NCBI RefSeq assembly: GCF_025602895.1
Contig: NW_026516205.1
Coordinates: forward strand, 806,001 to 870,000
Source of the DNA: Polychytrium aggregatum
Taxonomy: Eukaryota; Chytridiomycota; Chytridiomycetes; Polychytriales
DNA length: 64,000 nucleotides
Direction: 5' to 3'
A program made the translations under genes and the position numbers. The notes below the pieces were generated by a model that saw nothing but the letters and a program-made list of their open reading frames with translations, was not told the DNA's origin and did no database searches. Shown here piece after piece: positions 9,525-60,108 of this stretch. The stretch's first letter is position 1. Each line of letters starts with the position of its first letter.

Positions 9525-10008
9525 GGCAAGCTCGTTCTTGATGGGCGAGATCGGTCGTGCTGTCCGGGATCAGCCGCGATTGAGACCGGCTGCAGATCAC
9601 AGATCACAGGTCGCAGATCGCAGGTCGAGCAAGAAGCCTGCTTTGTTGGCGGCGAGCAGAACAGGCCAATCGCAGCGCGCGCCGGTTCCCTTGGACGGAA
9701 AACTCCCACACCGCGGATTGTCGTTTATTGATTTGGTGCATTACGATCCATCGCTCCCTTCATCAAAACGGCCGGAAGCATGCTCACGGTACGCAAGTTG
9801 ATCATGGCCACTCATCCAAGCTCAACTTGCCAGCGGCGACCATCAGCAACAACGAATCGTTGGCTTCCAGACACAGTGAGCATACTGTTTGGTTGTGGTA
9901 GCGATAGGCAAGTGAGTATTCAGGTCCCAGAAAAAGACAGCTCTGGCTCAAACCAGGGCGTCCCCTTTCAAACTGCGTGCGCTGTGGCATCCACCTTGGC
10001 CAACTCGC
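9525..10008. other. Intergenic between POP7 and the T5orf172 gene
   Basis: Short spacer upstream of POP7 and downstream of the T5orf172 stop. It contains an imperfect repeat of cagatcacaggtcgcagatcg at 9594-9630 and a degenerate transposon end near 9890-9985. No coding sequence is supported. Confidence 0.5.
9890..9985. mobile_element. Degenerate end of the Tc1-type MITE family
   Basis: The stretch GTATTCAGGTCCCAG at 9915-9929 and ACCAGGGCGTCCCCTTTC at about 9953-9971 match the right-hand end of the element at 19661-19986 (tgtgtattcaggtcccag ... aaccagggtgtcccgtttcg). A GCTG(T)-like terminus falls near 9980-9985, where the bordering TA appears mutated. No left terminus was found, so this is a truncated, older copy. 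Confidence 0.6.
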
Positions 10009-15243: not shown

Positions 15244-15592
15244 CAGACTTCACACATGAGCAAACGGGACACCCTCACGACTCCATTTGTCAGCGTAGTA
15301 TGCGATGGCTTGCGTCCAATGGAGACACATGCGATTCAACAAATCCCCTCCGAGTGAAGACCTCCGGTCGCTCTCCGGTATCCACAATCGACATGCACTG
15401 CTCAAAGTACCGAGCAAACCGCTGCCTCCTGGGACTGGGTGCATAGCCCTTGCCCTGTCGCCATGACGCAGTGCCAGCGGTGAATGGTGCTCTTGGACAC
15501 TGAATATGGCCAGGGTGCGATGGTATTGGATAGCAAATTATTCGGTCAATGACCAAAACCAGGGTATCCCGTTTCTTTCTGGATCGGCTGTA
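15244..15592. mobile_element. Deletion derivative of the Fanzor/Tc1 element
   Basis: A 349-bp non-autonomous copy. The left end is degenerate but aligns to the left terminus of the 3.6-kb element, with cGGGACacc at the same distance. The right end ATCCCGTTTCTTTCTGGATC...GGCTGTA matches the right terminus and ends at TA (15591-15592). Inside, 15350-15396 match the extreme 3' coding end of the Fanzor gene, 15402-15469 match another Fanzor coding segment, and immediately after, 15470-15540 match the 5' end of the transposase gene (gaatggtgctcttggacactgaatatgg). It lies between the membrane-protein gene and the API5 stop codon, 146 bases from the latter. Confidence 0.85.
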
Positions 15593-19660: not shown

Positions 19661-19986
19661 TACACTGTATTCAGAGGGGTTCGGGACACTCACATGCCAG
19701 CGTAGTATGTGATGGCATGCGTCAAGCTGAGCCATAAGAAGGGCGATGTGGATGGCGACGGTGCGCTTGAATTGCTCAAAGTACCGAGCACACCGCTGCC
19801 TCCTGGGACTGGATGCATAGCCCTTGCCTTGACGCCATGACGCAATGACAAAGGCGATAACGACCTCGGTCTCCTTTGGCATACTGCATGGCCATGGTAG
19901 CGATGGGTGTGTGTATTCAGGTCCCAGCAAACAGAAACTCCCATGGCTCAAACCAGGGTGTCCCGTTTCGTTCTGGGTACGCTGTA
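19661..19986. mobile_element. 326-bp non-autonomous Tc1-type element with Fanzor-derived core
   Basis: Left terminus TACACTGTATTCAGAGGGG with cGGGACAC 20 bases in; right terminus GTGTCCCGTTTCG...GCTGTA. Both ends border TA dinucleotides, as expected for Tc1/mariner target sites. The core at about 19766-19870 matches the Fanzor coding segment at 20377-20480 (gctcaaagtaccgagc, ccgctgcctcc, gatgcatagcccttgcc). It lacks both intact genes. Its right TA (19985-19986) is also the left TA of the following 3.6-kb element, so the two sit head to tail with a shared border. It begins 227 bases upstream of the API5 start. Confidence 0.85.
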
Positions 19987-20013
19987 CACTTTATTCAGAA
20001 AAAAACGGGACAA
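19987..20013 (+). repeat. Left terminal inverted repeat of the composite element
   Basis: CACTTTATTCAGAAAAAAAC followed by GGGACAA, directly after the TA at 19985-19986. It pairs imperfectly with the right terminus at 23574-23600. Confidence 0.8.
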
Positions 20014-20160
20014 TATAGCCGTTTCCATGAACATGTAGTATGTGCTGTGCTTGCGTCAAGCAAAGCCACAAGAAATAAAACAGATCACTTTGGCAGCCTC
20101 CGAGTGAAGACCGCCGGTCGCTCTCCGATCTCCACAATCGACCTGCATACTGTGATCATG
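20014..20160 (-). ncRNA. Possible Fanzor guide-RNA (omega-RNA-like) region
   Basis: TnpB and Fanzor guide RNAs typically overlap the 3' end of the nuclease gene and extend towards the element end, where the guide reads out into flanking DNA. The matching position here is the last coding codons (20085 onward) plus about 75 non-coding bases to the left terminus. Parts of this strip, including cctccgagtgaagacc(g/t)ccgg and the ctctccg..tccacaatcgac block, are kept in the deletion copy at 15244-15592 although most of the gene is lost. This is placement by analogy only; no fold or transcript was seen. Confidence 0.3.
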
Positions 20161-22456
20161 TTGCGCGCCGCATTGACGTCGCGATTCCACACTGTCCGGC
20201 AGCTGGGATTCTTGCAGCTCCTGACAAAGTGGGAATTCGCAACACTGGGCGCATCGAGTCCTTCCAACCGAACTGGCTCCAGGCAGTTGGAGCACACCTG
20301 CGAGGTGTTGAACTCGTTCGTCGAGGCCACCTTGACGCTTCCATGATGGTGATTGGGACGGCGTCGGTGGTGCTCGAATTGCTCAAAGTACCGAGCAAAC
20401 CGCTGCCTCCGAGGGCTGGATGCATAGCCCTTGCCCTGTCGCCATGATGCATTGCCAAAGGCGATCACCACATCGGTCCGTATCGGGGCGTGCTTCAGGA
20501 CGGCCTTGCACATCTTGTCGACGGCCACTTGGCGCCTCTTGTGGCCCGTGAATCGATGGTGACGGGCCTTCTTGCCAAGGTGGAAGTCGAGCTGCACTCG
20601 CAGCTCCGGTCGCAGGACATGGGTGAGATGGACCTTGAAAGCCTCCGAGGACGACACCTTGGGCGAGGGGTGGTCGACATCCAAGTCTCGATGCTGAGTC
20701 GATACTTCATGGTGTTGTGCCACTCAGTATTGGACGTATGGCCACACATGTGCTGGTAGTGGCCATTGGAGAATGAGACCACCTCGTCTTGGTGGCCCGG
20801 TGCTTGGATGACTGCCGTGAAGATGGAGCCGACTCCAGGATCGATGCCAATCCAAGTGGTGCGGTTGGGGTCTGGGTCGCCAATGTGCTCCTGGATACGC
20901 TGCTCGGCAGTCGGAGGAGGCTCGATGGTCTCGGTGCGATTGGTTCGACGCACAAACTTGACGAGGCCGATGGTGCATCCAATGCCATCGGTGCTGATCT
21001 CGTAGTTGAACAGCTTGTGATTGATATCCCGGTCACGGAAGAGGGAACTACGCAGCTTGAAGCAACTGCGCCAGAGACGATCCTGGTTGTTGACACCGTC
21101 CTCACCTTCTTCCTTGAGCTTGTCCCGGGTGAGTCCAAGGCGTTTCTTTGGACCCAGGAGATCCCAGAGAGTGACGGTGTCAATCTTGACATACTTGGCC
21201 GTGGCAGTGCACAGAGGAACTATCGTGCACACGGCCGGAGGAGTGTCGACGGCGAGCTGCTTGAGGGCCCAGTTGATCCTGGATGCCAGCTTGTTGATCT
21301 TGGACTTGGTGGTGCCAAGCTCCGACTTGGCCGTGGTGAACCTCTTGTCGTCGGAGGGAATGCCTTGGGTAGTGAGCTTGTCCAGCTTGGCCTGGCGCTG
21401 CAGCTCAGTGACTCGGAGGGCGGGCATGTCACAGTCGATCCACTTGTGGACATTGTCGACCATCTTGTCTCGGGCGAGGATTCTCACATGGTGTGAGAGG
21501 CGATGGAGGGCCCGGAAGCGGTCCTGGTCGCTGCTGTACCGAAACTCGTCCAGGACGTGGCCAAAGTCTGGATAGAGGAACTCGAGATCGGCCTTGGGTG
21601 GAGTCTGCCCTGGTTTCTCGAAGAGCTCGAGACAGGCCTCGATGGCTTCGTGCTTGTGCTTGTTGGCTGGGAAGACGGCAGCGCAGAAGCGGCGAAGGAG
21701 TCGCCAGTAGGCCAGGTCGAGGTGGGTGGTGCAGTTGGTGGCATAGGCATTGACAGCCAGGGTGAGAAGCTGACTGTGTGCACCATCAGGCAGACGAGGG
21801 GCCGGAGGCAGGTCTGCGTGCCGAGTGGTCTGGTAGATGCCAAAGGAAACAACCAACTGCTCGTTGTACTGCTCATTGTCCCCGGTCGGCGAGAGGGCAC
21901 CGGCCTCGACAATCGTGAAGCATTGGCGGATGAATGCAGGTGTGGACTTGGAAATGACGGGGACGGGAAGATCCTGCTCGATGCACCGGAGGATGTGCAG
22001 GTTGAGCAGCCTGGATGCCTCGAATTGGATCTGGGTCATGGCCTCGACGGTGGCCTGGATCTTGTCGCGGAGAGCGGGATTGAGACAACAGCCATCCATC
22101 GTCTGCTTGAAGCAGCTGAACTGAGGGGCGGATGACCTTCCATCCACGAGTGGGACGACAGAACTCTTGAGGGGGTGATATTCGGGACACCTGTTGGTGT
22201 TGCTTCGCTGATGATCGGTACCGTCGCACTGGCGACATCGCTTGCCGGTACTCGAGGAAGTAGATGGACCAGGCTCGGTGGGATCGACATCCATTGGATC
22301 TGCAGAAGCAGTGGTGGTGAGCGACGGAGCAACAGACGACCAAGCATGCGTGGGGTCAGAATACGAACCAGAGACAGGCTCCGACTGTGACTTGGCTTTC
22401 TTGGGCCTGGGTGGCCGAGGCTGGCCATCACCGGTACCCTTGCGCTTCGGAGGCAT
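20085..22456 (-). CDS. Fanzor (TnpB-like RNA-guided nuclease family), frameshifted
   Basis: Fanzors are eukaryotic relatives of TnpB that use a guide RNA and a RuvC-like nuclease domain to cut DNA. The protein starts MPPKRKGTGDGQPRPPRPKK, a basic nuclear-localisation-like N-terminus, then CRQCDGTDHQRSNTNRCPEY, a zinc-knuckle-like motif. About 440 largely helical residues follow. RuvC motif I is TWIGIDPGVGSIFTAVI, with the first catalytic Asp. Around 20660-20710 the frame shifts. The downstream frame carries LRPELRVQLDFHLGKKARHH, GHKRRQVAVDKMCKAVL, ASTNEFNTSQVCSNC (Glu plus first zinc pair), SCKNPSCRTVW (second pair) and NRDVNAARNM (RuvC III Asp), ending at 20085. All three acidic positions and the four-Cys zinc finger are present, so only the frameshift appears to disable it. 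A sequencing error or very small intron is possible. Total about 790 residues if joined. Confidence 0.88.
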
Positions 22457-22585
22457 GGGGGCAGAGGATGCTGGATGCCTGCCAGTGGTACTGGTCAGAA
22501 CAGAGACTTTTTTTATCGTACAATAGCGCGATGATCAGATCAAGGCGAGATGAGGGAAGAAAGCAGCAGGACGAAGGTGTGGCAT

Positions 22586-23516
22586 TTATACCCGAGAGCA
22601 GGAACCCGTCTTTGCGGGCTGGTTGGGGAAGTGACCCTGTTCAAAAATCGCCGAGAGGTTCAAGCCAGGGATGTGAACGCGAAAATGGCGGCTTGATTGG
22701 GGGACTAAACCCCAAAATGATGGGGACTCAACCCCAAAGAAGTTCTCGATGGGATTGAAGTCGGGCGAGGCAGGTGGGGTGAAGATCACTGACCATCCTC
22801 GGCGCTCGATGCAGTCCAGGACAGCCCTTGTCTTGTGCATGCTGACATTGTCCATCACAGCCACAGAGTCGTCTGGGAAGGTCGCTCGCTCAAAGAACTC
22901 GACCATCGAGTGTGTCTTGAATGATGTGGGGATGTACATGCGATGCAGCACACCAGAGTGGTTGATGGCAAATGCAGCCGAGACAGACTTGTGTTCCATG
23001 TGATTGCGCTGGCGAAGCGGAGCACCCCTCGGTGAGTATCCGTAAAGAGGAAAAATGGATATCCTGATCCCTGTCTCATCGACAAAAACGAATCGTCGTG
23101 GGTCGATGGAGCGGGCCTGGTCCCTGAACTGTGCCACTCGCTCATCCAGTCGCTTGGACTTGTAGAGGTAGGTGTGTTGCCCTCTTGTGTGAGAGACCTG
23201 CTCGGTGGATGGCAGTGTGGCAGAGTGAGAGTGATACTTTCCTCTGGAGGATGGACTCGAGCTTGCATCGCAGCACAGGACCAGTCTGGAACGGGTCCTG
23301 TTCAATCAGGGTGCGAATGACTGGACATGCCTGCTCGAAGAAAGTGGATCTGCGAGCTGGGACCCGGGATGGGTCATCCAGCTTGCATCCTCGGTGCCAT
23401 CGATGGATGGTGCTCTTGGATACACTGAATATGGAGGCGACCTTACGCAGGCTATGGATGAGGGCGTAGCATCGCAATGCGGCGGTGCGAAAGTCGGATG
23501 TGTGGCGAATGGTCAT
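22586..23516 (-). pseudogene. Tc1-like DD34E transposase, frameshifted and 3' altered
   Basis: Cut-and-paste transposase of the Tc1/mariner (IS630-related) group. The first frame, from 23516, has a helix-turn-helix: SLRKVASIFSVSKSTIHRWH and a second DNA-binding half (FQTGPVLRCKLESILQRKVS, SLCHTAIHRAGLSHKRA). It then loses frame near 23160-23190. The other frame continues with YKSKRLDERVAQFRDQARSI, FVFVDETGIR (first Asp), SVAVMDNVSMHKT (second Asp) and SPDFNPIENFF (Glu), with 34 residues between the second Asp and Glu. After the Glu motif the sequence departs from the family: it runs into a duplicated TTTGGGGTT-AGTCCCC motif and an unrelated tail ending at 22586. So the DNA-binding and catalytic parts are in different frames and the C-terminus is replaced. 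It lies just upstream of the Fanzor start, in the same direction. Confidence 0.88.
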
Positions 23517-23573
23517 GGCCAGCGCGCGATAGCATTGGGTAACAAAATATTCGATGAATGGTCAAAAACCCGG

Positions 23574-23600
23574 GTGTCCCGTTTTTTATTGGATTGCCTG
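23574..23600 (-). repeat. Right terminal inverted repeat of the composite element
   Basis: Read on the minus strand from 23600: CAGGCAATCCAATAAAAAAC then GGGACAC, bordered outside by TA at 23601-23602. The same end, with a few changes, terminates the copies at 15592, 19986 and 60108. Confidence 0.8.
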
Positions 23601-23788
23601 TAAAATGAAAACTCGAGACAGGTGCTTTGTCGCTCGCCAGTAGCAAAGCTCGTTCGCCAATAGCCAAGGCCGCTCGCCACTGCCCGCGCTGCTCCCCAAC
23701 ACTTGTGCCGTCGCTCGATCCCATGCCCCCCTCAGCCCTCCCTTGGCTCAATGAGCACCTCTCTCTTCTGTTATGCAGGCGTGCCGGA

Positions 23789-59470: not shown

Positions 59471-59934
59471 GCGCAGCCGACTTTGGCCACAGTAGCCTAT
59501 TCGAGATCCCGTCCAACGGGAGAGAAGTGATTCACGACCATATGCGACTGCTGACGGACCGGCTCCCGAGGCCTGATCTGCTCACTTCGCCTCCATTATT
59601 TCTTTTTTTCCATTTTCTTTATTCCATCCAAATCACATCTCTATCATTTCGTGTGTGTGGGGGGGGGGAGGTACGAGAGTGAGTGTCTTTCTTTGTAGTT
59701 GACCGACTGGCGCAGCGAGAATACAGCGTTCAAAATCAAACGGAGCACACTGCCTTTCGAGGTGAATGGGACGAGCGGTTGTTTTTGATTGGATTTTGTT
59801 TCACCACACCTCCCTTCAGCACGGGCAGCAATATGCCTACACGCGGTCGATATTGCAAGTGACGGACACCAGTCCGTGGCTATGTTCATCCATGTATTCC
59901 GATACGCTTCAACCGCATTCCTTGGACACCATGA

Positions 59935-60108
59935 TACACTGTATTCAGGGGGGAAATGGGACACCTGGTCTCGGAGTGCCAGCGGTGAATGATGGTATTG
60001 CGCCGCATCACAGAATGGCCATGGCCAGCGTGCGATGGTAATGGGCAACAAAACATTTGATCAATGGTCAAAATCAAGGGTGACCCGTTTTTTATCGGAT
60101 CGCCTGTA
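59935..60108. mobile_element. 174-bp MITE of the Tc1/Fanzor element family
   Basis: Left TACACTGTATTCAGGGGGG then aatGGGACACC; right GTGACCCGTTTTTTATCGGATCGCCTGTA. Both ends border TA. The interior at about 59985-60075 (gtgaatgatggtattgcgcc, cagaatggccatggccagcg, aacaaaacatttgatcaatggtcaaaatc) matches the transposase-proximal end of the 3.6-kb element (23490-23570). No Fanzor-derived segment is seen. It lies between the Velvet and PIH1 genes. Confidence 0.85.

Follow-up and report, generated by a model that had tools for sequence, protein, structure and literature searches.

A Fanzor nuclease and a Tc1/mariner-type transposase between one pair of ends in an abundant transposon family of Polychytrium aggregatum

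The combination of a Fanzor and a mariner transposase in one element has been in print since 2013, when PGv-1 and PUl-1 were described as elements carrying Fanzor1 together with a Mariner transposase (Bao and Jurka 2013, PMC3627910). In that description both genes lie between terminal inverted repeats (TIRs) with a TA duplication, PUl-4 stands for Fanzor-only relatives with TIRs in common, and PGv-1 and three relatives are given as single-copy. Another related system is Spu-1 of Spizellomyces punctatus, which encodes SpuFz1 between conserved inverted repeats; the published account places no transposase between these repeats and reports ghost elements in which the omega-RNA end is preserved (Saito et al. 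2023, PMC10432273). The IS605/IS607 TnpB elements likewise combine a transposase with an RNA-guided nuclease whose guide is the flanking DNA (PMC10711439). The biological role of Fanzors is stated as unknown by Saito et al., who pointed to the ghost copies in suggesting a possible role as helpers of transposons in trans (PMC10432273). Here we describe a transposon with a Fanzor and a transposase gene, situated at positions 19985-23602 of a 64,000-nucleotide stretch (hereafter the window) of contig NW_026516205.1 of the chytrid Polychytrium aggregatum, and the family to which it belongs.

Sequence comparison confirmed that this element is a broken member of a Tc1/mariner (IS630, DD34E) family, with the Fanzor and the transposase gene between one pair of ends, an arrangement like that of PUl-1 and PGv-1. 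The inverted termini with TA borders that the sequence-only reading had placed around both genes were found: the two 28-bp ends match at 21/28 positions (manual count), with TA on both sides. The end pattern TACAN(14-18)AACGGGACA occurs three times in the window (0.01 expected), namely at both ends of the element and at one end of an adjoining element, and a pattern scan of the window gave no match inside the unit, including the interval between the genes, which speaks against independent ends of the Fanzor there. Unlike the published description of Spu-1, the transposase lies inside the unit; unlike IS605/IS607, it is a mariner-type DDE enzyme, not an HUH or serine enzyme, and the insertion is accompanied by TA duplication.

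The family was analysed in the genome assembly (64.7 Mb, 418 contigs), with up to 3 mismatches allowed in the end searches and 100 places listed per search. Near-exact ends (<=3 mismatches) numbered 276 on the left and 396 on the right, and reversed patterns gave none; the looser pattern of related ends given above was found 1,116 times, against 12 for its reversed control. Thus, in contrast to the single-copy PGv-1 and its relatives, the family comprises hundreds of copies as well as short derivatives. Redundant contigs repeat some sites, and 100 listed left flanks amount to 90 distinct ones. The list of exact left ends, which reaches contig C168, has 100 entries; for 51 of them the same strand has an exact right end, also listed, at a distance of no more than 6 kb, and the other 49 are unpaired. 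Most of these pairs (41/51) enclose 3.18-3.79 kb, 18 of them 3,735-3,745 bp, and the remaining ten are short (283, 312, 383-385 or 1,114 bp).

Forty copies with matching ends were fetched, hand-chosen from the lists with long ones favoured (29 long and 11 short), in addition to the window copy. All 11 short copies were internal-deletion derivatives of the full element. TA was present at both ends in 42/42 end-located copies, a count obtained with search strings that contained TA and with up to 4 mismatches allowed. Since 41 of the 51 listed pairs have full-length spacing, the short copies derive from the same element and no end pattern lies between the genes, it is well supported that the nuclease and the transposase travel as one unit, as the sequence-only reading had proposed for a single autonomous-type transposon; the examined copies in which a gene is missing are related by descent to the full unit. 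The assembly was also searched for copies with both genes intact, which that reading had expected to be the informative ones. The 310-aa transposase was open in 14 of the 30 long copies and the Fanzor (789-849 aa) in 17, and both reading frames appeared open in nine.

In 8/30 long copies, i.e. in the window copy and in 7/29 others (L010, L013, L014, L015, L045, L047 and L048), the transposase has a deletion whose right-hand breakpoint is identical. None of the eight encodes the 310-aa transposase, and three retain an open Fanzor. A Fanzor-carrying subfamily with a damaged transposase therefore seems to have spread as well, presumably helped in trans, and the window copy is, judging by its reading frames, a dead member of this subfamily, with a deleted transposase C terminus.

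The sequence-only reading had recognised a Fanzor and a DD34E transposase gene in the same orientation. Their identity and shared (minus) orientation were upheld by protein profiles, whereas both genes proved to be broken in the window copy. Transposase homology ends at about 22733, the start of a net deletion of about 126 bp; the retained part matches DDE_3 (PF13358, 5.4e-20). The transposase of copy L028 scores 81.6 bits with DDE_3 (cut-off 28.6) and 121.4 bits with NF033545 of IS630 (cut-off 100), and has the triad D145, D221 and E256, whose spacing of 34 is that of DD34E. A scan for an N-terminal helix-turn-helix gave HTH_23 at 18.4 bits, against a cut-off of 24.6. In a protein search with the transposase, 33 proteins with DDE_3 were found, the best being 35% identical.

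The window Fanzor is split over two frames, overlapping at 20.5-20.7 kb, and its zinc-ribbon piece matches the TNB domain PF07282 (4.6e-10, 39.9 bits, cut-off 26.3), as does the Fanzor of L028 (34.8 bits). The published signature D-X(125-275)-[TS][TS]XX-C4 zinc finger-X(5-50)-RD (PMC3627910) is present in L028 as D-X179-TSQV-C4-RD, and in L069, a copy of a sister family described below, with a spacing of 198 and the RD; in the window copy its parts fall in two frames. A search with the family Fanzor gave no match at E 0.001 among 7,990 candidate proteins scored, and against solved structures, with E up to 1, SpuFz1 was the sole match, a weak one (E=0.21) in the C-terminal tail. The interval of about 130 bases that the sequence-only reading had given between the genes is partly a result of the deletion: in long relatives the transposase stop and the Fanzor ATG lie about 251 bp apart, a distance that shrinks to about 121 bp in those with an in-frame ATG further upstream. 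Frames of 790-849 aa had suggested a transposase-Fanzor fusion, which was rejected, as the coordinates give two separate genes.

Both genes were similarly constrained by purifying selection during the spread of the family. The ratio of nonsynonymous to synonymous substitution rates (dN/dS) was 0.21 for the transposase (14 open-frame copies) and 0.285 for the Fanzor (11 open-frame copies of equal length). The corresponding ratio for variants (pN/pS) among the 30 long copies was 0.21 and 0.31, respectively, for variants present in at least five copies, and 0.52 and 0.44 for singletons. This similarity speaks against the Fanzor being a useless passenger.

The transposase half was also found joined to a second Fanzor. 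In L069 (element at L069:203-3992) the right end and the transposase are 96.4% identical in DNA sequence to the family described so far (family A) over 1,014 bp; the identity stops near the transposase stop, and beyond this point only patches can be aligned. The left end of L069 differs, and its open Fanzor (855 aa) is 42.7% identical to that of family A. A search for the junction, in which 40 of 301 candidates were scored, revealed 16 places with the L069 arrangement (family B) and 24 with the transposase part only. By these alignments, one transposase half carries two Fanzor-plus-left-end halves. Similar chimerism has been described for viral mariners, in which a common transposase half is joined to differing other halves (Bao and Jurka, PMC3627910). 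At several further places (L052-L054, L056, L065-L068) homology around family B Fanzor ends runs past the TA and into a larger repeat, which seems to have captured a Fanzor element and multiplied it along with itself.

Comparison of copies that occupy the same site on different contigs revealed that their interiors, which differ by 2-3.5% within nearly identical flanks, look mosaic in the assembly. L023 and L025 agree in 598/600 flanking bases and differ in 131 bases (3.5%) inside; L031 and L035 agree in 600/600 flanking bases, with 8 differences and one gap in 384 inside; and the window copy and L090 agree in 989/990 flanking bases, with 86 differences and 271 gap columns inside. Linkage of common variants falls from an r2 of 0.47 (<10 bp) to 0.05 (25-50 bp), chance being 0.034. 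Singletons are mostly transitions (237/343); the variants therefore look like real mutations, though their distribution among the copies seems jumbled. The likely explanation is an assembly consensus that is mosaic over the repeats, the other being extreme gene conversion, which we set aside as the cause of the 3.5% same-site difference because variants more than 25-50 bp apart are linked at close to the chance level. Where the flanks are unique, the junctions are expected to suffer little from this.

The base preceding the 5' TA, read in the Fanzor-sense orientation, was T in 41/41 fetched copies (39 distinct sites), compared with 14-16% of the TA dinucleotides in the window. The base before this T was A in 21 copies, T in 11, G in 8 and C in one. 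Among exact right ends genome-wide, T was found in 172/178, some of these ends representing the same site on redundant contigs, and a different base in six. Two of the six appear to have a common flank (C101 and C376). In L091 and L092, the two exceptions that were opened fully, the left junction shows CA where TA would be expected, which counts against TA duplication there, and they are therefore not plain TA insertions; for the remaining four, the right junction was fetched. L036 and L044 sit in the ends of other elements, and joining their flanks with a single TA restores a 28-nt end; thus, the T was already part of the target, and it is the TA that is duplicated. The conserved CA upstream of the 5' repeat in Spu-1 elements, which matches the target-adjacent motif (TAM) of SpuFz1, CATA (PMC10432273), is comparable. 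By this analogy we predict that the family A Fanzor has a TTA target motif and that its guide lies in the left flank.

The Fanzor-side end may hold the scaffold of an omega-RNA. The scaffold of Fanzor1 reRNA includes the TIR and the target site duplication (PMC10711439), and the SpuFz1 RNA consists of a 75-nt scaffold and a 14-15-nt guide (PMC10432273). A terminal hairpin was predicted with z-scores of -2.2 in family A (L016, 53 nt) and -3.5 in family B (L069, 70 nt), the transposase-side ends giving about 0.1, and the terminal UA was paired in the best fold of 35/42 family A copies. In all 11 short copies, no less than 167 nt of the Fanzor-side end and 99 nt of the opposite end are preserved, as Spu-1 ghost elements keep their omega-RNA end (PMC10432273). 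Even the end of the window copy might still yield a guide RNA. The features of the window element are collected in Table 1.

Table 1. Features of the window element and its immediate surroundings (window coordinates)
Feature	Position	Strand	Basis or remark
Entire element, 3,618 bp including TA borders; both genes on minus strand	19985..23602	-	End matches
Left terminal repeat with TA, Fanzor 3' side	19985..20012	+	Sequence TACACTTTATTCAGAAAAAAACGGGACA
Right terminal repeat with TA, transposase 5' side	23575..23602	-	Reverse complement of TACAGGCAATCCAATAAAAAACGGGACA
Transposase gene, broken	22733..23516	-	Start 23516; frame change 23.14-23.31 kb; C terminus cut by deletion
Fanzor gene, broken	20085..22456	-	Open from ATG 22456 to 20495; zinc ribbon and RuvC III in other frame, 20723-20085
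Predicted terminal hairpin of guide-RNA scaffold, closing on TA	19985..20037	-	Fold of matching 53 nt of L016, z=-2.2
Region kept in short derivatives (>=167 nt); may hold omega-RNA scaffold	19985..20152	-	11/11 short copies
Predicted guide of window copy, within end of neighbour	19965..19984	-	From position
T of predicted TTA target-adjacent motif (A on plus strand)	23603..23603	-	
Neighbouring short element of third family, with piece of Fanzor C terminus; TA 19985-19986 common to both	19661..19986	-	

The neighbouring element is 326 bp long and internally deleted, with ends of its own belonging to a related third family, and the window element sits at its terminal TA; the end-pattern match places the neighbour's end at 19959-19986. 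Short similarities to flanks with Fanzor-related elements at 15282-15392, 9880-9985 and 59932-59965 of the window are possible remnants of more members.

At the sequence level the family displays the properties of an autonomous-type unit, i.e. a single travelling unit, TA duplication, hundreds of copies, constraint on both genes and a foldable Fanzor-side end. The reading that we prefer, and hold to be somewhat on the probable side, is that a TA-inserting transposase acts together with a flank-guided Fanzor that cuts the unoccupied allele, repair then copying the element in. The transposase would move the unit into a TA, and an omega-RNA from the Fanzor-side end would run on into the flanking host DNA, which would serve as guide. 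If cutting by the Fanzor requires a T-TA directly 5' of the guide sequence, the perfect target would be the unoccupied T-TA-guide site on the sister or homologous chromosome, and a cut there, repaired from the occupied copy, would install or restore the element. Short derivatives, which keep the Fanzor-side end, could be served in trans.

Several observations weigh against this reading. The mosaic interiors make the intactness of any single copy uncertain. The folds are less convincing elsewhere: the terminal UA was paired in only 3/10 other B-type ends, besides L069, and 130-nt folds reached only z -1.6 (family A), -2.1 (family B) and -0.6 (the neighbour). The terminal regions of the short copies may have been kept for transposase binding alone. 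Excision of the mariner type leaves a footprint, and at a re-joined site the T would be shifted away from the guide; the target should therefore be a never-occupied allele. Finally, the T is less regular in family B, of which 15/16 places were viewed (L061, L069 and L070-L082; the sixteenth lies at a contig start, and three lacked a right end in the fetched stretch). T was present at only 5/9 distinct sites and missing from four, and at one T site, common to three places, TA is replaced by GA; where both ends were seen, T was present at 3/4 distinct sites. Exact B-type right ends, for which a non-A was required three places before the -3 position, had T in 13/22.

These last counts bear directly on the main rival explanation, which we regard as a real possibility: the oriented T-TA would reflect the target choice of the transposase, either alone or complexed with two ends that differ, and the Fanzor would do something else or contribute nothing to mobility. 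T also exceeds background in copies of family B, whose transposase half is the same (5/9 distinct sites, binomial p ~0.007 with 0.158), as this explanation would have it, and in bacterial IS605 elements it is the transposase that sets the TAM. Against it, the frequency of T differs between the families (39/39 versus 5/9 distinct sites, Fisher p 0.0006), a Fanzor TAM would be expected just where the motif is found, as with the CA in SpuFz1 elements, and constraint on the Fanzor is about equal to that on the transposase. We also know of no mariner with an oriented target, TA itself being palindromic. The difference between families A and B, both of which are above background, neither proves nor excludes a role of the Fanzor.

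An attack by the Fanzor on rival transposons, whether as an additional function or in place of the one above, is improbable; in that case a copy inserted at another element's end would have that end sequence as its guide. The window copy does share the TA that closes a related short element, and 10/90 distinct left flanks resemble related ends, against a mean of 2.2 in shuffles (max 8 in 2,000); however, 80/90 do not, and clustering of transposons is common without any targeting. Chance nesting of a separate Fanzor element and a mariner, or an assembly artefact, has next to no likelihood, since, although copy interiors are mosaic, with linkage near chance beyond 25-50 bp and the 3.5% difference of L023 and L025 inside near-identical flanks, hundreds of copies share the same two ends in varied flanks (90 distinct among the 100 listed), most listed pairs have full-length spacing and no end pattern lies inside the unit.

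Returning to the preferred reading of insertion by the transposase and cutting of unoccupied alleles by the Fanzor, we propose a more specific form of it tentatively, as being on the doubtful side. The family would be a complete homing transposon of a eukaryote, in which the mariner transposase inserts at T-TA and the Fanzor, with RNAs from the ends of full and short copies, cuts every empty T-TA-guide allele, repair then driving the element to fixation. The nuclease and its RNA end would form an exchangeable cassette, because the same transposase half carries two Fanzors 43% identical to each other, both open in the assembly.

Compared with PUl-1 and PGv-1 as described (PMC3627910), two open Fanzor modules are present here on a 96%-identical transposase half, selection has been measured, and an oriented T-TA was found at nearly all family A sites counted. 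In the open-licence literature we recognised neither a family of the same type nor a demonstrated role of a Fanzor in retention. What is new here is a very abundant member of this group with a sister family carrying another Fanzor, together with an apparent T-TA bias and a predicted hairpin at the Fanzor end. Since a single genome here combines the transposase, the Fanzor, short derivatives and hundreds of sites, the role of a Fanzor becomes testable: the family offers a predicted TAM (TTA), predicted guides in its flanks, two different Fanzors joined to one type of transposase half, and short copies on which the proteins could act in trans.

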